A DNA stretch of 64,000 bases from Anaerobacillus sp. CMMVII (GTDB lineage Bacteria; Bacillota; Bacilli; Bacillales; Anaerobacillaceae): assembly GCF_025377685.1 (NCBI RefSeq), contig NZ_JACEHK010000015.1, forward strand, positions 186,001 through 250,000, read 5' to 3'. Under the pieces are notes generated by a model. The model did not search any database and was not told the DNA's origin. It saw nothing but the letters and a program-made list of their open reading frames with translations. This document shows positions 9,837 through 63,022 of this stretch, piece after piece (position 1 is the stretch's first letter; each line of letters opens with the position of its first letter). A program made the position numbers and the translations under genes.

Positions 9837-11192
9837 TTACAAGAGCAAAAAAAGAGGGAAGCTTTGAGTAACACCCAGCTTCCCTCTTCTTTTATTTTCA
9901 CACTGACCACGCAGCCTTTGAAAATTTTCTTGTTTAAACTTTGGTTCGGTGATTTCGACGATCACTTTTTGGATTCGGCGATTGCGAACATCTTCAATGT
10001 AAATTTGAAGGTTTCCAAAGACCATTGTTTCACCCTTTTTAGGAAGATATCCTATAGTTTCTGAGACCCAGCCACCTAACGTATTAGAGGTAGTTTCAAT
10101 GTCAGTAATATTTAGAGCTTCACAAAATGTTTCAATGGGTGTCCGTCCATTTAAACGAATTTTATTCTCGCTTATCGTTTCAACAAACACTTCGTTCTCA
10201 TCATTTTCATCCCAGATCTCACCGACAATCTCCTCGATAATGTCCTCGATCGAAATAATTCCTGAGGTTCCACCGTATTCATCAAGGACAATAGCTAGAT
10301 GAACCTTACTTTTCTGTAACTCTCTTAATAAATTTGATATTTTAACAGACGAAATAACAAAATACGGCTTCCGCAAAATGACTGATAAGTCAAATGTTTG
10401 ATGATTTACATACTGTTCAAAAAAATCTCTGTGAGAGATAATACCAATGATATTATCAATAGTGCCCTCATAAACTGGCATTCTCGAATATTTCTCTTGG
10501 ATAAAAATATCTTTTATTTCCTCTATCGTCGAATCGACAGCAACAGCGATGACATCAGGTCTTGGTGTTAAAATGTCTTTTACAACGATATCGTCAAATT
10601 CAATTGCATTATGAAGTAATTCTTTTTCTTGAGTAAGAAATGTCCCTTCCTCTTCACCAATTTCAACCATAGCTTTTACGTCTTCGTCAGTAACGGTTGG
10701 TTCTTCGTTATTTGATCCAATCATTTTTGCTACACCAACTCTTAATTTAACGAAAAGCCAAGTAATAGGGTAAAAGATTTTCATGACGATACCTAAAGAA
10801 GCAGATATAGTCAGTAAATACTTTTCAGCAAATTGTTTTGCTAAAGATTTAGGGAGAATTTCCCCAAAGATTAAAACTAAGATCGTTATGACTAACGTTG
10901 TAATAAATAGCGTACTACCATTATTGCCATACATGTCTGTAGCAACCTTCGTAGCAATCGTCGCCATTGCAATGTTTACAATGTTATTTCCAATTAGAAT
11001 AGTAGATAAGCTTTGATCAAAGTTTTCTGTCATCTTTAACGAACGTGTGGCTCTTACGTTATTGCTTTCGGCGTAATTTCGCAACCTCACCTTATTAGCA
11101 CTAGTAATCGCCGTTTCCGATGCTGAAAAATAACCTGATAATATTAATAATGCCCCTAATAGAAATATCGAGTCATAGGGTATACTGTCCAA
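9837..11192 (-). CDS. Hemolysin/CorC family protein (DUF21-CBS-CBS-CorC)
   Basis: A membrane protein of the HlyC/CorC (CNNM-like) family, thought to act in Mg2+ or Co2+ efflux or homeostasis. An N-terminal DUF21 domain has about four helices, with GYFSASETAITSANK. Two CBS domains follow (MPVYEGTIDNIIGIISHRD and later LAIVLDEYGGTSGI), then a CorC_HlyC domain. The open frame begins with a TTG at 11210, but the TTG at 11192 follows GGAGAGTGATG and is preferred. The last dozen residues are translated from the terminator hairpin, which is unusual and may mean a small indel moved the frame past the real stop. Confidence 0.88.
   Translation of the reverse strand: MDSIPYDSIFLLGALLILSGYFSASETAITSANKVRLRNYAESNNVRATRSLKMTENFDQSLSTILIGNNIVNIAMATIATKVATDMYGNNGSTLFITTLVITILVLIFGEILPKSLAKQFAEKYLLTISASLGIVMKIFYPITWLFVKLRVGVAKMIGSNNEEPTVTDEDVKAMVEIGEEEGTFLTQEKELLHNAIEFDDIVVKDILTPRPDVIAVAVDSTIEEIKDIFIQEKYSRMPVYEGTIDNIIGIISHRDFFEQYVNHQTFDLSVILRKPYFVISSVKISNLLRELQKSKVHLAIVLDEYGGTSGIISIEDIIEEIVGEIWDENDENEVFVETISENKIRLNGRTPIETFCEALNITDIETTSNTLGGWVSETIGYLPKKGETMVFGNLQIYIEDVRNRRIQKVIVEITEPKFKQENFQRLRGQCENKRRGKLGVTQSFPLFLLL
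9848..9894. terminator. Bidirectional terminator
   Basis: AAGAGGGAAGCT pairs with AGCTTCCCTCTT, with A/T runs on both sides, so it can end the LTA synthase on the plus strand and the convergent CBS-domain gene on the minus strand. The minus-strand reading frame as given runs through it. Confidence 0.85.
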
Positions 11193-11448
11193 AATTTCAT
11201 CACTCTCCAAAAATGTAGTTATTATAAATATACTCCATAAATTGATGTCATATCAACAAATATAAAAATAATCATATAAAGTGTGAATACTTCATCGGTC
11301 TATAGGATACAATCAAAAAAATTTGTAGACTCTAAGTAAAAATTTTTGAATATTTTCTCTTCAAGGTGTGGTAATATATTTTCAATATAAAATATATTTA
11401 GGTTTACTAAGGAAATGAATTCCAGTGACTGAAAAGCGGGGAAGTACC

Positions 11449-12669
11449 ATGTGGAAAAATAGAAACGTGTGGATATTATTATGTGGTGAATTGATTGCAG
11501 GTATTGGTTTATGGACTGGTATCATAGGAAATCTAGAGTTTTTACAGCAGCATGTCCCTTCTGATTTCCTAAAATCACTGATTTTATTTACGGGATTGTT
11601 AGCAGGGGTGGCTGTTGGTCCACTTGCCGGAAGAATGATAGATTCTTATAGTAAAAAGAAAGTGATGATTTACGCAAGTTTTGGTAGAATGCTAAGCGTT
11701 TTGTTTATGTTTTTAGCAATTGAGTTTGGTTCTGTTTGGTGGATGATTTGTTTTATGATTGCAATCCAATTGTCCGCTGCATTTTATTTCCCAGCATTAC
11801 AAGCATTAATTCCGATAGTTGTGGAGGAAAAAGATCTATTACAAATGAACGGCGCTCATATGAATATGACAACCATCTCTAGAATTATTGGTACAGCATT
11901 AGCGGGAGTAATGCTTGTATTCGTAAGTTTATATTCTTTATATCTAGCATCATTTGTCGCTTATGGTTTCTTACTACTTACGACATTTTTATTATCTGTA
12001 GAAGAGGATAAGCAGCTTACCTCTGCTGAGAAGAAAGATAAGAAAGCAGTTAGCTTTAAAGAAGTGATTCCTGTATTAAGAGGTCTTCCGATTGCGATGA
12101 CAGCATTAATATTGACTATCATCCCAATGCTATTCTTAGGTGGTTTTAACTTAATGGTTATAGCTATCAGTGAATTACAGCAAGATCCAACTATTAAAGG
12201 CTTGATTTACACTGTAGAAGGTACGTTCTTTATGCTTGGAGCATTCTTAGTGAAGCGAATAGCTGATAAAGTCAATCCAACCATATTAATGTTTGTCATA
12301 ACTGGAGTGGTAGCGCTCATTCATCTTTCACTTTACTTTGCAGATATTAAATTACTAGCACTTACTTCATTTGGATTATTTGGTTTAGCTATAGGTTTTT
12401 TCTTTCCAATTACCGCTACCATATTTCAAACAAAGGTTCCAAAGGAATTTCATGGTCGTTTCTTCTCGTTTAGAAGTATGCTTGACCGAGTCATGTTTCA
12501 GGTTGTTTTATTAGCAACTGGTCTTTTTCTTGATACGTTAGGGTTCCGAAATATGGTTTTAGTATTTGGAACTGTTTCACTAGTACTTGTTACGTTTTTT
12601 GCGATCAAACATTATAAAGCTCCGCTTCGAGAAGTAGTTGAACAGGAGCAAAAAGTAAATTCCGTGTGA
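11449..12669 (+). CDS. MFS transporter, 12-helix exporter type
   Basis: A 406-residue major facilitator with about twelve membrane helices and the characteristic loop GRMIDSYSKKKVM between helices 2 and 3. It resembles drug or metabolite efflux MFS proteins of Bacilli; the substrate cannot be told. A GTG at 11425 extends the frame upstream, but the ATG at 11449 follows GCGGGGAAGTACC and is the better start. The gene stands alone: a terminator follows and the upstream gene is divergent. Part of the upstream gap (11220-11420) is very AT-rich and should contain both promoters. Confidence 0.88.
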   Translation: MWKNRNVWILLCGELIAGIGLWTGIIGNLEFLQQHVPSDFLKSLILFTGLLAGVAVGPLAGRMIDSYSKKKVMIYASFGRMLSVLFMFLAIEFGSVWWMICFMIAIQLSAAFYFPALQALIPIVVEEKDLLQMNGAHMNMTTISRIIGTALAGVMLVFVSLYSLYLASFVAYGFLLLTTFLLSVEEDKQLTSAEKKDKKAVSFKEVIPVLRGLPIAMTALILTIIPMLFLGGFNLMVIAISELQQDPTIKGLIYTVEGTFFMLGAFLVKRIADKVNPTILMFVITGVVALIHLSLYFADIKLLALTSFGLFGLAIGFFFPITATIFQTKVPKEFHGRFFSFRSMLDRVMFQVVLLATGLFLDTLGFRNMVLVFGTVSLVLVTFFAIKHYKAPLREVVEQEQKVNSV

Positions 12670-16786: not shown

Positions 16787-18339
16787 TATTGCTGACTTTG
16801 TTTGAGTAGTTCATCTAATTTTTTTCTTCTTCGTTTTTCCTTCTGTTTTTCTTCTCTCACTTCTTCATTCAAAGCTTTAACAATTGAAAATATCATGAAA
16901 ACCATTATAATCGCAAAAGGAAAAGCAGCAACGATTGATGCAGTTTGTAAACCATTTAGCCCGCCACTCCACAAAAGTACGGCAGCAATTGAGGACTGTA
17001 GGACGCCCCAAGTTAACTTAGTAGAGTTAGCTGGATTTAAGACACCTTTTGAAGTGATCATCCCAAGAACAAAGGTAGCCGAATCTGCTGAAGTGACAAA
17101 AAAAGTTATAATTAGGAATGTAGCGAGCAGAGCAAGGACCGTTCCAAGAGGAAAGTGCTCTAGAGTAATAAATAAAGCTGTAGTAACATCCTGACTGACA
17201 GCTTCAGAAATACCGCCACCTTGAAACATATCGATAAAGATCGCTGATCCACCAAAAGCAGCAAACCAGAGGGCACCGAAAATAGACGGTACGAGTAAAA
17301 CGCCAAGTACAAATTCCTTAATTGTTCTACCTCTAGAAACACGAGCGATAAACGTTCCGACAAATGGAGCCCAAGCAATCCACCATGCCCAGTAAAATAG
17401 GGTCCAAGCACCAATCCAAGTACCTTGAGAAAAAGGTGTCATTCGAAAACTCATTGGAATAATATTACCTAGATAGCCACCAATAGTTGTTGTAAAAGCC
17501 TCAAGGATAAAAGAAGAAGGCCCCATAACTAAAACAAAAAGTAGTAATCCGAGTGCAAGTCCTAAATTTAAATTACTTAAATAACGAATGCCCCGATTAA
17601 GTCCTGTGGTAGAAGAAATCATATATAAAACGGTAACAACTAAAATAATGATAATTTGGATCGTGATATTGTTTGGAATTCCAAAGATATAGGACAAGCC
17701 CCCATTAATTTGTAATGTTCCAAGTCCTAAAGAAGTTGCCACACCAGAAACGGTTGCAATAGCAGCTAATGTATCAATCCCTTTTCCAATTGCACCGTCA
17801 ACATGATCACCAATAAGAGGGCGAAAAGTCGAACTGATTAGCCCTGATTCTCCTTTTCGATACTGTGAATAGGCAAGCGCTAAGGCGATAATGGTATAAA
17901 TAGCCCATGGGTGTAGTCCCCAGTGGAAAAATGAATACCTAAGTGCATAACGGGCAGCATCTGGTGACAGTCCCTCAGCAAGACCTAAGGGCGGCGTAAT
18001 ATAATGATAAATAGGTTCAGCCACACCCCAGAACACTAAACCAATTCCCATACCAGCTGAAAATAACATGGCAAACCATGAAAAAAATGAATACTCTGGT
18101 TCTTCATCATCTTCTCCAAGTTTAATTTTTCCGTAAGGCCCAAAGGCTAAATAGAAGGCAAATGCCAGAAAGAAAAACGTCGCCATTAGATAAAACCACC
18201 CAAAGGCATTAGTTGTAAATTCAAGTGCATTAGTAGCTTGGAGTTCTAAGTGTTCCGGAAAGATAAATCCCCATAAAACAAAAAGAGTTGTGATTGTTAC
18301 TGATATGTAAAATACCGATCCTAGATTTCGTTCTTTCAT
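16786..18339 (-). CDS. BCCT family betaine/carnitine/choline transporter
   Basis: A 517-residue sodium- or proton-coupled transporter with about twelve membrane helices, importing glycine betaine or related trimethylammonium compounds as osmoprotectants. The family signature MGIGLVFWGVAEP is present, as are WAPFVGTFIARVSRGRTIKE and the tryptophan-rich YWAWWIAWAPF substrate-binding helix. A positively charged C-terminal tail (EKQKEKRRRKKLDELL) is typical of OpuD/BetP-type osmosensing. A longer frame starts at 18375, but the ATG at 18339 follows AAAGGATGATTTCATC and fits homologues. No osmotic promoter element was identified. Confidence 0.92.
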   Translation of the reverse strand: MKERNLGSVFYISVTITTLFVLWGFIFPEHLELQATNALEFTTNAFGWFYLMATFFFLAFAFYLAFGPYGKIKLGEDDEEPEYSFFSWFAMLFSAGMGIGLVFWGVAEPIYHYITPPLGLAEGLSPDAARYALRYSFFHWGLHPWAIYTIIALALAYSQYRKGESGLISSTFRPLIGDHVDGAIGKGIDTLAAIATVSGVATSLGLGTLQINGGLSYIFGIPNNITIQIIIILVVTVLYMISSTTGLNRGIRYLSNLNLGLALGLLLFVLVMGPSSFILEAFTTTIGGYLGNIIPMSFRMTPFSQGTWIGAWTLFYWAWWIAWAPFVGTFIARVSRGRTIKEFVLGVLLVPSIFGALWFAAFGGSAIFIDMFQGGGISEAVSQDVTTALFITLEHFPLGTVLALLATFLIITFFVTSADSATFVLGMITSKGVLNPANSTKLTWGVLQSSIAAVLLWSGGLNGLQTASIVAAFPFAIIMVFMIFSIVKALNEEVREEKQKEKRRRKKLDELLKQSQQ

Positions 18340-18563
18340 GATGAAATCATCCTTTTTATAAAAAAATAAGTACAATTTTCCTTATTATGATTTAAATCAT
18401 GTATTTCATGCAGGCATTCTTATATTGCTTCCTAGAAAGAAATCAGTCTTTAGATGGAGGTGATTTCCTTCGATTGACTGTTATCTAAATGTGATTATTT
18501 GGATAAAATTGAAGTGAGAAAGGGAACAATAAATTTGTTCCATTACTAAGGAGGTAATTAGTT

Positions 18564-18713
18564 ATGGTATTTCACTTTTTATTTTTTACAATAAAAATTA
18601 CAAAGCGTAACTTTTCAGGGGAACAACTTACTCGTGCCCGAGAAGCTGAATTGTTAGAGCAAAAGTTTGAGGAAACGAAGCAACGCTTTTTATATACGCA
18701 AAGGTTACTATAA
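18564..18713 (+). CDS. YrzI family small protein
   Basis: A 49-residue protein preceded by an excellent ribosome binding site (TAAGGAGGTAATTAGTT). The sequence MVFHFLFFTIKITKRNFSGE followed by a charged helix (REAELLEQKFEETKQR) matches the pattern of YrzI-type small proteins of Bacilli: a short hydrophobic start, ITxKKR-like middle and amphipathic tail. These have been labelled probable sporulation proteins but their role is unknown. A terminator follows the stop by 14 bases, supporting a real transcript. Confidence 0.7.
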   Translation: MVFHFLFFTIKITKRNFSGEQLTRAREAELLEQKFEETKQRFLYTQRLL

Positions 18714-18727
18714 TTTAAGAATATTTT

Positions 18728-18756
18728 GGCTGTCTCATGAAGAGGCAGCCTTATTT
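18728..18756 (+). terminator. Terminator after the yrzI-like gene
   Basis: GGCTGTCTC pairs with GAGGCAGCC (one G-U) around ATGAA and is followed by TTATTT. Confidence 0.8.
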
Positions 18757-18905
18757 CGTTGTAGCAACATTAAATCACTTGGTATGTATTAAAATAATAT
18801 GTGCAACAATGGTACTATTCAATTTCACTATCAGGTTTAAAGAAGTGCACAATCAAAAAGACGTTATCAAAAAATCTTTTAAAGTAAATTCTACTAGGAG
18901 TGACC

Positions 18906-19538
18906 ATGGAACATATCCTACTATTTCTTATAAAACTTTTGAAAAAGCTGTCCTACCTTGGAATTGTTTTGGCATTGTCTTGTGAAGTAGTTCCTGCAGA
19001 AATTGTCTTACCCTTAGCAGGATTTTGGGTTTATGAGGGTGAGATGCTATTCTGGTTAGCTGTTTTAGCTGGAACTCTTGGGGGAACGTTAGGTCCTTTG
19101 TTACTATATCTAATTGGCCGATTTGGTGGGCGACCGTTTTTATTAAGATACGGAAAGTATCTATTTATTAAAAATAAGCAAATTCAAAAAGTTGAAGATT
19201 TTTTTGGGAAATACGGTGGTGGTGTTGCCTTTTTGGAAGGTTCATTCCTGGAGTAAGGACACTGGTACCGGTACCTTGTGGATGGCAAAAATGAATATAG
19301 GACTATTTATTTTCTATACTTTTTTGCAATGCTTCCTATTACATATCTTTATGTTTGGCTAGGAGTTAAATTAGGCCCAAGATGGAAGGATGTTGGTCTG
19401 TTAGTTAACGACTTCCTTGTTGAGATACTGTTAATTTTCTTAATGCTTTTCGCTATTTTCATGGGCATGAAACATTTATATAGGACAGTAATGTTCATGG
19501 TGGCGCGTCTCTACTTCATCAAAAAGGCGAAGAGTTGA
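18906..19538 (+). pseudogene. DedA family membrane protein, three frameshifts as sequenced
   Basis: A DedA/SNARE-associated (VTT domain) membrane protein, a family implicated in lipid scrambling and membrane homeostasis. The first part reads SCEVVPAEIVLPLAGF and GPLLLYLIGRFGGRPF. Restoring one T at 19230-19234, one G at 19284-19285 and one T at 19320-19325 gives GRFIPGVRTLVPVPCGWAKM and YTFFAMLPITYLYVWLG, the conserved core. The ATG at 18906 follows AGGAGTGACC. The last residues after KHLYR are read from sequence belonging to fruR, so the natural C-terminus seems replaced by a deletion junction near 19485. Three adjacent one-base losses suggest poor base calling here. Confidence 0.8.
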
Positions 19539-59670: not shown

Positions 59671-59739
59671 CTTTCACTCCCCAATTAAGGTAAATTAATG
59701 ATGGTAAGTTTAAAATATAGAAAAGTGGAGGGGAATGTA

Positions 59740-60240
59740 ATGCCTAAGGCAGATAAGGGACTAAAACCTGGAGCGAAAATTCCGACGTTTACACTTGAGG
59801 GTGTTGATGGGAAAACATATAATTCCAAGCACTTGGAAGGGGAACCGTTTTTACTGTATTTTTTAAGGGGGACGTTTTGACCCAATTGTCGCAAGCAGTT
59901 AGTTCAACTGCGTGAAAATGTAGCTAAATATAAGGAGTTAGGGGTAAATATATTTGTAATTGCTGGTCAAAATAAAAGTTCTGCAGCAAAGTGGTTAGAG
60001 AAAAATCCAATGCCTTTTCCTTTTTTAATTGATGCTGATCGGTCTGTGATTAAACAATTTGATGTGTACAATCCAATTAGTTTTGATGCTTTCCGCCTCG
60101 CCCATCCAAGTTTATTTTTAGTTGATAGCGATGGGAAGATCGTGTATAGCTACGTTAGCTCCAACCAATTTGATCGACCAACAGAAAATGCGACATATGA
60201 AAAGGTTCATGATTTGTTAGCAAAATCTATAGATGCCTAA
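59740..60240 (+). CDS. Peroxiredoxin-like selenoprotein (in-frame UGA as Sec47)
   Basis: A 166-residue AhpC/TSA-type thiol peroxidase-like protein. The start MPKADKGLKPGAKIPTF follows GTGGAGGGGAATGTA. The frame meets tga at 59878-59880 and then continues in the same frame, fully open, to 60240. Around it the protein reads LLYFLRGTF-(TGA)-PNCRKQL; relatives have Cys at this position in a CPNC redox motif, so the product is predicted to carry UPNC with selenocysteine 47 and resolving Cys50. A SECIS-like hairpin begins 11 bases after the tga. The rest (VIAGQNKSSAAKWLEKN, FPFLIDADRSVIKQF) is ordinary for the family. An ordinary nonsense mutation is the alternative. The sel genes are not in this window. 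Confidence 0.8.
59892..59914 (+). other. Bacterial SECIS-like stem-loop
   Basis: GCAGTT at 59895-59900 and AACTGC at 59906-59911 pair perfectly around the five-base loop AGTTC, with two further pairs (CA/TG) outside one mismatch. The apical loop lies 20 bases after the tga, and has G at its second position; both agree with the bacterial SECIS rule (16-37 bases, a G among the first two loop bases). The structure overlaps codons for CRKQLVQL. Confidence 0.65.
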
Positions 60241-60252
60241 TACTAATACCTA

Positions 60253-60291
60253 CAAACACGAGTATCTCTTAGGAAGATGCTCGTGTTTTTC
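60253..60291 (+). terminator. Terminator after the selenoprotein gene
   Basis: AAACACGAG pairs with CTCGTGTTT, with an inner ATCTCTT / AGATG part, followed by TTTCT. Its presence supports translation of the gene up to 60240 as one transcription unit. Confidence 0.85.
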
Positions 60292-60438
60292 TATCGTGAA
60301 ATTATATTTTTGAGTTTTGTTACAGGTGAATGTTATTTTCCTTCATATATAAATGTGAAGTACTTATGAAGAAACATTCACAAATTAGCCAAAAATTTGA
60401 CCCCTATTTCGCCTTAATCACTATTACAATTGTATTAA

Positions 60439-60454
60439 AGTGATAAATATCACA
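60439..60454 (+). promoter_or_regulatory. Fnr/CRP-like box upstream of cydABD
   Basis: AGTGATAAATATCACA matches the TGTGA-N6-TCACA pattern of Fnr sites in 9 of 10 positions. A -10-like TATTAT at 60472-60477 would put the box centre near -38 to -40, close to a class II activator position. Fnr activation of a high-affinity oxidase when oxygen falls is plausible but inferred. Confidence 0.45.
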
Positions 60455-60567
60455 CTTAGGGTATAAGTGAATATTATTTTTGAATAGAAATATGATCAGA
60501 AGTGAGCATGGGTACTGGATGTTAATGTTTGTGTAATACTGAACAAGTTAGTTGATTTAGTGTTAAA

Positions 60568-60583
60568 TGTTCATTACTGAACA
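60568..60583 (+). promoter_or_regulatory. Perfect palindrome TGTTCA-N4-TGAACA before cydA
   Basis: A 6-4-6 palindrome 47 bases upstream of the cydA start. The half-site with flank TACTGAACAA recurs at 60537-60546. It resembles redox-repressor Rex operators (TTGTGAA or TTGTTAA arms) and cyd is a classic Rex target, but the arm sequence differs, so the protein is uncertain. Confidence 0.45.
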
Positions 60584-60630
60584 AAGTGTTGAGTAAGTAG
60601 AAAAGAATAGGTAGGTGGAGGGGAATAGGT

Positions 60631-62004
60631 ATGTTTGAAATGCTCGATGTTTTAATGTTATCAAGGTTACAGTTTATGTTTACAGTGATCGTTCACTATT
60701 TTTTCGTCCCTTTAACGATAGGCTTGGCAGTCTTCATTGCTTTCATGGAGTTCCGGTATTGGAGAACAGGTAATCCCCTATACGATAAAATGGCCCGTTT
60801 CTGGACGAAGCTGTTTCTCGTCAATTTTGGTGTAGGGCTTGCTACAGGGATTACGATGGAATTTCAATTTGGAATGAATTGGGCAGGTTACTCCCGATTT
60901 GTAGGTGATATCTTTGGTGCGCCACTTGCTGCTGAGGGGGTATTTGCCTTCTTCCTAGAGTCGACGTTTATTGGTTTACTAGTTTTTGGCCGTGATAAGA
61001 TTTCTAAGGGGATGCGTTTTTTTGCGGCACTAATGATTTCGCTCGGAACAACGATGTCATCATTTTGGATTATTGCCGCCAATTCATGGCAGCACACACC
61101 GGCAGGATTTATTATTAACGAGGAAATGAACCGTGCAGAAATGGTCAACTTTGCTGAAGCTATTTTTAATCCGTCAACAATGGTGAGATTTTTCCACGTT
61201 CTCCAAGGTGCTTACATTTTATCTGCCTTTTTTGTAATCGCGATTAGCGCTTACTATTTGTTAAGAAAGAAGAATATTCCTCTTGCAAAAAAATCAATGA
61301 AATATGCGGTGATTTTTGGATTAGTCTTTTCTGTGACTCAGGCTTTTTCAGGACATTCTCACTCAGTATTAGTAGCTGAGACACAGCCAGCAAAGCTTGC
61401 AGCTTATGAAGCCCATTGGGAAACAGAGAGTAATGCACACTTATTACTGTTTGCCATTCCAGACTATGAAAACGAAACGAATAAATTTGAAATAGGCATC
61501 CCAGGACTACTAAGCTATCTGACTCACGGAGACCGAAATGAGCCAGTATTAGGTTTAAAAGAGTTTCCCGCAGATGAACGTCCATCAATTTTAGGTAACT
61601 TTATAGCATTTCGAGTCATGATTGGTTTAGGAATGATCTTTATTTTCTGGACGATCTATCTAGCTTTCCAAATGCGAAGAGGAACACTTTATGATAATCA
61701 CTTCGCCCTAAAAACATCATTGCTACTATTGCCAACACCATATCTTGCTAACACAGCAGGCTGGATTGTAGCTGAATGGGGCAGGCAGCCTTGGATTGTT
61801 TATGGTGTTTTAAGAACAGCTGATGGTGTTTCCCAATTAAGTACCATGGAGTTAGTATTGTCACTAGGTTTTTTCATTGGGATATACACGTTCCTTTTAT
61901 ACCTGATGATTTATCTGATGGTAAAAGAAGTGAAGAAATTTGATATGGAAAAAGCATTTAGTACTGATAAGGGTCACGAATCAGGAAGGGAGGAAACTGC
62001 ATAA
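60631..62004 (+). CDS. cydA: Cytochrome bd ubiquinol/menaquinol oxidase subunit I
   Basis: The haem-bearing subunit of the high-affinity bd oxidase, 457 residues with about nine membrane helices. Haem ligands are His22 (IVHYFFVPLTIG) and His189 (FFHVLQGAYI), with Met in the central helix region. The quinol-binding Q loop is of the short type found in Bacillus. The phrases AEWGRQPWIVYGVLRTADG and EFQFGMNWAGYSRFVGDIFG are characteristic. The ATG follows TAGGTGGAGGGGAATAGGT. It heads cydA-cydB-cydD, with overlap of one base to cydB. The 390-base gap upstream holds an Fnr-like box and palindromes. Confidence 0.95.
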   Translation: MFEMLDVLMLSRLQFMFTVIVHYFFVPLTIGLAVFIAFMEFRYWRTGNPLYDKMARFWTKLFLVNFGVGLATGITMEFQFGMNWAGYSRFVGDIFGAPLAAEGVFAFFLESTFIGLLVFGRDKISKGMRFFAALMISLGTTMSSFWIIAANSWQHTPAGFIINEEMNRAEMVNFAEAIFNPSTMVRFFHVLQGAYILSAFFVIAISAYYLLRKKNIPLAKKSMKYAVIFGLVFSVTQAFSGHSHSVLVAETQPAKLAAYEAHWETESNAHLLLFAIPDYENETNKFEIGIPGLLSYLTHGDRNEPVLGLKEFPADERPSILGNFIAFRVMIGLGMIFIFWTIYLAFQMRRGTLYDNHFALKTSLLLLPTPYLANTAGWIVAEWGRQPWIVYGVLRTADGVSQLSTMELVLSLGFFIGIYTFLLYLMIYLMVKEVKKFDMEKAFSTDKGHESGREETA

Positions 62005-63022
62005 TGGATCTCAATATTATTTGGTTTATCCTGTTAGGTGTTTTAATAATTGGTTATGCCGTTTTAGATGGTTTTGACTTAGGGATAGGGACGCTATTTT
62101 TTACGCTTGGAAAAACAAAAGAAGAGAAAAAGACGCTTATAAATTCCATCGGTCCTGTTTGGGACGGGAACGAAGTTTGGTTATTAACTGCAGGTGGTGC
62201 TCTTTTCGCAGCCTTTCCTTTCGTTTATGCTACAGTCTTTAGTGGCTTTTACTTAGCGATGTTACTCGTATTGTTTGGGTTGATTTTCAGAGCTATTGCA
62301 GTTGAATATTATTTTAAAACTGAAGATGATCCGCATCTGCAAAACTGATGGGCAGGCTATTTTTCATTGGCAGTCTTCTCCCAGGGTTCCTTTTTGGGGT
62401 AGCTATGGGAAACATTGTTGTAGGTATTCCAATGGACTCTATGCAAAACTATTCAGGTACTTTCTTTAATCTATTAAATCCATATTCGCTACTTTTAGGA
62501 ATTGTAGGTTTAGTTGGCTTTTTACTCCAAGGGACAACGTACACAATTATTAAAACGGAAGGTGCTATCCAACAAAGAGCGATTCGGTTAACGAAACTAT
62601 TTAGCGTCTTAATAATTGTAGCTTGGGTGTTAGGTACATTAACAGCGCAAATTTATGCGCCACATATGTATACGAATTACTTTAACTATCCTATCTTGTT
62701 TATTATTCCATTAACAACAGTGGCCGGTCTACTAGCCATTCCAATGCTTCTTTCGATTGGTCATTATGGAAAGTTATTTATCGCAAGTTCTGTAGTTATT
62801 GCAACGAAAATTGCTACGCTTGCTGCTGGGATGTTCCCTAACCTAGTATTTTCTACAAACTCAGCGACTAGTTTGACAATTTATAATGCATCATCAACAG
62901 ATTTAACATTGCGAGTGATGCTGATCGTTGCGCTTATTGGTATGCCTTTAGTCATTACGTATACAATTTACGTCTATTATGTATTTCGTGGTAAGGCAAC
63001 TTCAGAGCGCCATGGCTATTAG
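62004..63022 (+). pseudogene. cydB: Cytochrome bd oxidase subunit II, frameshifted as sequenced
   Basis: Partner of CydA. The first frame reads GYAVLDGFDLGIGTLFFTLG and PVWDGNEVWLLTAGGALFAA and ends at DDPHLQN. Adding one A to the run at 62341-62344 gives HLQKLMGRLFFIGSLLPG and the frame continues to tag 63020-63022. Restored length is about 339 residues, normal for CydB, with eight helices. The ATG follows GGAAGGGAGGAAACTGCATA. The break looks like a sequencing loss in a homopolymer. Confidence 0.92.

Follow-up and report, generated by a model that had tools for sequence, protein, structure and literature searches.

A probable UxxC selenoprotein of the AhpC/TSA family in Anaerobacillus sp. 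CMMVII and its MCP-fused relatives

Peroxiredoxin-like (Prx-like) thiol:disulfide oxidoreductases of family PF00578 with a UxxC or UxxU motif are listed in Table 1 of PMC13188914 as a high-confidence predicted selenoprotein family that is not experimentally verified, and the accessible part of PMC1088965 describes Prx-like proteins with UXXC in place of TXXU. The motif of selenocysteine (Sec) peroxiredoxins is given as TxxU in the accessible text of PMC13188914. An earlier note on the locus studied here had stated that UxxC redox proteins are common among bacterial selenoproteins, which agrees with the same Table 1 (PMC13188914).

The locus lies in a 64,000-nucleotide stretch of the Anaerobacillus sp. 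CMMVII genome (hereafter the window; the assembly has 4.87 Mb in 21 contigs) and encodes a protein whose frame contains an in-frame TGA. We consider it almost certain that, with the help of a hairpin further 3', this codon is decoded as selenocysteine 47 and that the residue then cycles with Cys50 through a selenylsulfide. Judged from its sequence, the gene is a new member of the already known UxxC Prx-like selenoproteins, with which it shares PF00578, the UxxC motif, Cys-containing homologues at the same position and a SECIS-like hairpin after the UGA, as far as the accessible descriptions of that family go. It differs from them in belonging to a clade with the motif RGT[FW]UPNC and in having some relatives fused to an MCP-like region, the comparison having been made with the family's description and not with its representative WP_010940744.1.

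The read-through frame and its surroundings

Between the ATG at 59740 and the TAA at 60238-60240 we found exactly one internal stop, the TGA, located in LRGTF-TGA-PNCRKQL (Table 1). The read-through protein matches PF00578 with 99.2 bits (gathering score 26, E 2e-28, residues 10-136), so the frame 3' of the TGA is not open by chance; the profile scan also returned the Redoxin family. Translation and the PF00578 match thus confirm the earlier observation that the frame is open on both sides of the tga. The resulting UPNC, residues 47-50, is a UxxC motif at the active site. Against three congeners, dN/dS 3' of the TGA was about 0.05-0.09 and in each comparison equal to or lower than the upstream value, these being rough values from 46 codons upstream and 111 downstream with all dS above 1. 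Purifying selection therefore appears to persist 3' of the TGA, and the segment behaves like translated sequence.

Table 1. Features of the selenoprotein gene, in window positions
Feature	Position	Strand	Description or basis
Shine-Dalgarno-like GGAGGGG 5' of ATG	59727..59733	+	read directly from sequence
AhpC/TSA-family (UxxC) Sec protein, predicted, 166 aa + stop TAA	59740..60240	+	frame read-through, PF00578 match
TGA, codon 47, position 1 of UPNC, predicted to be decoded as selenocysteine	59878..59880	+	homologues 18/25 TGA, 7/25 Cys
TGT, Cys50, second UxxC residue, sole Cys in protein	59887..59889	+	
bSECIS-like hairpin	59895..59911	+	stem GCAGTT 59895-59900 / AACTGC 59906-59911, loop AGTTC 59901-59905
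Inverted repeat then T run, possible intrinsic terminator	60254..60288	+	consensus scan negative

Both flanking signals named in the earlier note were revisited. The ribosome binding site at the start was found, its GGAGG separated from the ATG by 8 nt. The terminator after the end is plausible at most: an inverted repeat with 14-nt arms (60254-60267 and 60275-60288, 93% complementary) runs into TTTTT 3' of the stop, but a consensus terminator scan returned 0 sites.

A standard-code listing of open reading frames splits the gene in two (59698-59880 and 60010-60240), so that annotation can easily cut short both this gene and its relatives. Cys/Sec pairs, co-occurrence with selA and a codon-controlled hairpin test, all reported below, together correct such annotation.

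In the window the gene is situated upstream of cydA, encoding a bd oxidase (59740-62004 for both). The same arrangement was seen in 2 of the 18 homologue loci tested (L035 and L036), both from congeners; a third congener (L034) has no cydA inside the 1.5 kb flanks. Further 3', after cydA, a cydB-like gene (62004-63022) seems to be interrupted by a change of frame at about 62330-62348.

Proposed redox chemistry of the UPNC motif

Cys50 is the only internal partner available to Sec47 because it is the sole Cys of the protein. The highest 19-residue hydropathy is 0.62, and since no segment is strongly hydrophobic the protein is presumably cytoplasmic. Taken together, the single Cys and the lack of a strongly hydrophobic segment make Sec47 and Cys50 a likely redox pair, which would alternate between a selenolate/thiol form and a selenylsulfide bond.

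On the chemistry that this pair performs we lean slightly toward thiol:disulfide oxidoreduction of the ResA/TlpA type, which the alignments appear to favor somewhat over a peroxidase. The competing proposal, nested within the selenocysteine reading and in line with the more reactive peroxidase suggested in the earlier note, is a true peroxidase in which Sec47 attacks H2O2 or organic peroxides and Cys50 resolves the product; we hold it to be a serious contender of somewhat lower probability. Several observations speak for it. PF00578 and Redoxin are both matched, Bcp is the best single-sequence match among solved structures, and the location upstream of cydA is compatible with oxygen-linked stress. 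An AlphaFold model built from a 14-row alignment (mean pLDDT 85.3, pTM 0.83, weak at residues 115-119) has a predicted fold that is peroxiredoxin/thioredoxin-like; the best 50 rows by Z in VIA-align (Z 19.9-21.0, rmsd 1.7-2.6) all belong to peroxiredoxins or Bcp, and the first rank in Foldseek is Bcp4. Against this, ResA-type structures occupy Foldseek ranks 2-4, and the profile scores of ResA and Bcp are alike. No ResA is found among the 50 VIA-align rows listed, whereas the Foldseek list has it.

The aligned active-site residues speak against a peroxidase. Classical peroxiredoxins carry a T/SxxC motif, with Thr or Ser three residues before the peroxidatic Cys, together with a conserved active-site Arg. 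Alignment to 2cx3 puts Sec47 at the Ser position of this motif; in the SxxC of the Aeropyrum Bcp/thiol peroxidase it is the Cys that aligns to Cys50 and the Ser to Sec47. The Arg of the Bcp stretch KRAVFIV aligns, in a profile sequence alignment, to Pro123, which like the following Ser124 is invariant in 14/14 homologue rows; this position for the classical Arg is the one given by the sequence alignment. Pro123 stands at what we take to be the cis-Pro place of thioredoxin-like reductases. A profile alignment sets Sec47 on the first Cys of the ResA CxxC.

Comparison with named families places the protein near several of them. PrxU (NF040737), the TxxU Sec peroxiredoxin, is of the same superfamily, and a second gene of this genome with a TPGU motif (L003, see below) has that motif type; the Sec of the window protein occupies the T position (UxxC) rather than the peroxidatic one, and the PrxU model gives 21.9 against a cut-off of 270 bits. 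With ResA/TlpA-type proteins the fold is similar and GTWCPHC of a ResA variant aligns to GTFUPNC, the difference being that the window protein has no strongly hydrophobic segment; the ResA model NF002854 scores 60.1 against a cut-off of 170 bits. The model for SelL-related redox proteins (NF040769) matches in part, its best stretch covering residues 13-109, with 62.5 against 120 bits. Overall, the 16 NCBIfam models listed for the window protein all score below their cut-offs.

Probable reading of the UGA as selenocysteine

The earlier note had asked for a genome search for selA, selB, selD and a selenocysteine tRNA, and all four are present. They lie on one contig (C6) within about 11 kb: selA at 17813-19192 (556 bits, cut-off 268), selB at 10489-12360 (349 bits, cut-off 242), selD (401 bits, cut-off 125) and, with 58.6 bits against a gathering score of 47, tRNA-Sec, the last being the only one of 23 matches above that score and called SeC with anticodon tca by ARAGORN. 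Judged by gene content, the organism makes selenocysteine. The selD gene itself (L026 15625-16677, minus strand) contains one in-frame TGA, read GGUGCK, and selenocysteine synthesis in this organism thus seems to depend on a selenoprotein.

Including the window gene, at least six genes with an in-frame TGA were noticed in the genome. Three are formate-dehydrogenase-like, with TGA before a His (L061, L062 and L064; RIUHS, RIUHS and RTUHA); two of these score above the family cut-off and one below. SelD and formate dehydrogenase are both known selenoprotein families (PMC13188914, Table 1). Another is the separate TPGU gene of peroxiredoxin type (L003 1501-1941; G000:C4:33891-34331), and 3' of its TGA we observed the hairpin CCTCTTGGAAAGAGG.

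Homologues were collected from samples of genomes at three taxonomic levels. In the order sample, 16 of 397 genomes contained one (E <= 1e-25). A 14-row profile at E <= 1e-40 added the class sample with 12 of 398, of which three were already in the order set, giving 25 distinct genomes; at the same threshold the phylum sample yielded 2 of 398, both known already. We excluded one locus (L009) from these numbers because its printed protein is identical to that of L053. At the position of codon 47 there is a TGA in 18 of the 25 and a Cys codon in 7 (that of L059 being taken from its translation), and nothing else. This is the outcome of the alignment at residue 47 that the earlier note had suggested, and it upholds the view that the tga replaces the first Cys of a CPNC motif. 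A TGA flagged in the homologue of G529 was rejected, as it lies off the active site and the motif of that gene has Cys.

The distribution of selA follows the same division. It is present in 18/18 TGA genomes and in 1/7 Cys genomes (G506), against 181/397 in the order sample (Fisher test for selA versus TGA/Cys 4e-5, uncorrected for relatedness). In a midpoint-rooted tree of 25 rows both main clades contain Sec and Cys proteins (10 + 1 and 8 + 6), and the association with selA is therefore not the product of one single split. Sec and Cys forms can thus be compared naturally within this clade. Among six congeners, three have selA and no match to the gene at E <= 1e-30. In the samples searched, all genomes in which the RGT[FW]UPNC clade was found belong to the same class as the window. 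Searches extended to other collections: 31 stretches of viral contigs matched a pattern and none encodes a relative; 169 plasmid records had a match, all below 60% identity, and the named records among the 20 plasmid matches listed are mostly bcp or peroxiredoxin-like; and 53 stretches of genome contigs contained one relative, a Cys-type fusion of Tumebacillus permanentifrigoris.

Downstream of the UGA, the mRNA can form the hairpin GCAGUU-AGUUC-AACUGC, whose loop begins 20 nt past the UGA and has G at its second position followed by U. The accessible text of PMC13188914 defines bSECIS elements by a loop of 3-9 nt, a stem of 4-16 bp, a spacing of 16-37 nt, a G within the first two loop positions and a minimum free energy of -7.5 or lower. 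With a 5-nt loop, a 6-bp stem, the G, a spacing of 20 nt and -7.5 kcal/mol, the window hairpin lies within all of these bounds, its energy exactly at the published limit. At gathering scores Rfam returned 0 matches in the window, and a 61-nt fold was no better than shuffles (z -0.57).

The hairpin sits within the codons for KQLVQLR, and we therefore tested it by resampling codons while preserving the amino acids. In the 18 Sec genes 104 of 108 stem pairs form, against 72.7 expected (sd 3.8; the highest of 2000 synonymous resamplings gave 86); the window gene, from which the hairpin had been delineated, is itself among the 18, and the resampling takes related genes as independent. In six of the seven Cys genes (L059 was left out, its codon not being placed) 16 of 36 pairs form, against 20.1 expected under the same resampling. 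The separation of Sec from Cys genes by the hairpin is not absolute: one Cys gene (L054) is still capable of 5 of the 6 pairs, and 5 of the 6 Cys genes likewise have a G at loop position 1 or 2. In the 27-nt stretch, five Sec genes out of 18 (L034, L035, L036, L037 and L048) fold more weakly than -7.5. Three of the six stem pairs are invariant and three are changed on both sides. When the partner is shifted by 1-3 bases, pairing falls from 96% to 15-45%. Cells with double changes number 12 against 4.2 and the covariation score is 0.309 against 0.134, neither being reached in any of 500 shuffles; the percentage of paired cells is likewise above all 500. Two other measures were not unusual, namely the number of pairs changed on both sides (3; 61/500 shuffles as high) and of further pair types (5; 247/500).

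The insertion of selenocysteine at this TGA, as the earlier note had proposed, is thus supported by the sel genes, the tRNA-Sec, the 18 TGA and 7 Cys homologues and the SECIS-like hairpin. Strong indirect evidence points to a mechanism in which SelB with Sec-tRNA(Sec) would recognize the hairpin and the UGA would be read as Sec47.

A frame that becomes open once the code is changed does not in itself prove selenocysteine, and the UGA could in principle be recoded as Trp or passed by near-cognate readthrough. We regard such a reading as highly improbable given that selA occurs in all 18 TGA genomes, that the other 7 homologues have Cys at the aligned residue, that the hairpin is enriched among the TGA genes and that SelD and formate dehydrogenase of this genome have in-frame TGA at their known Sec sites. 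Least probable of all, with a likelihood near zero, is that the TGA is a nonsense mutation, a sequencing error for a real TGT or TGC, or part of a decaying pseudogene: the frame break in the nearby cydB-like gene does suggest that the assembly may hold errors or decay, but TGA stands at the same site across 18 genomes, dN/dS is low on both sides of it in three congener comparisons, and the TGA genes, unlike the 6 Cys genes, favor the hairpin more than codon choice would explain. Sequencing error in particular appears very unlikely because of the PF00578 match of the read-through protein, the TGA in 17 other genomes and the low dN/dS.

Relatives fused to an MCP-like region

After the redox domain, 8 of the 18 Sec homologues (L041, L043-L048 and L056) and 2 of the 7 Cys homologues (L053 and L054) continue into a region resembling methyl-accepting chemotaxis proteins (MCP). 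Three of these ten fusions were scanned with Pfam (L041, L048 and, for L053, its identical L009) and all three contain PF00015 at 96-102 bits; the others were judged from their translations. Hydropathy, a crude test, revealed no membrane segment in the fusions (highest value 1.37).

We propose that the Sec-MCP fusions of this sister clade probably act as cytoplasmic chemoreceptors: peroxide or some other oxidant would oxidize the U-C pair, and this would be signaled to the chemotaxis kinase. In a literature search outside of which most subscription papers lay, we found no description of a Sec-containing chemoreceptor, and the chemoreceptor and MCPsignal literature searched included none with AhpC-TSA. 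Similarly, the word 'chemotaxis' is absent from the accessible portions of the selenoproteome papers PMC13188914, PMC1794560, PMC9312934 and PMC12013277. The architecture of a Sec domain joined to an MCP may thus be new to the literature, and these sisters suggest that selenocysteine may serve sensing besides catalysis.

In the tree, the fusions together with four standalone Cys proteins are set apart from the clade of the window protein. As an example of the fused architecture, L041 encodes a UPNC Sec domain and an MCP signaling domain at its positions 1501-2829.
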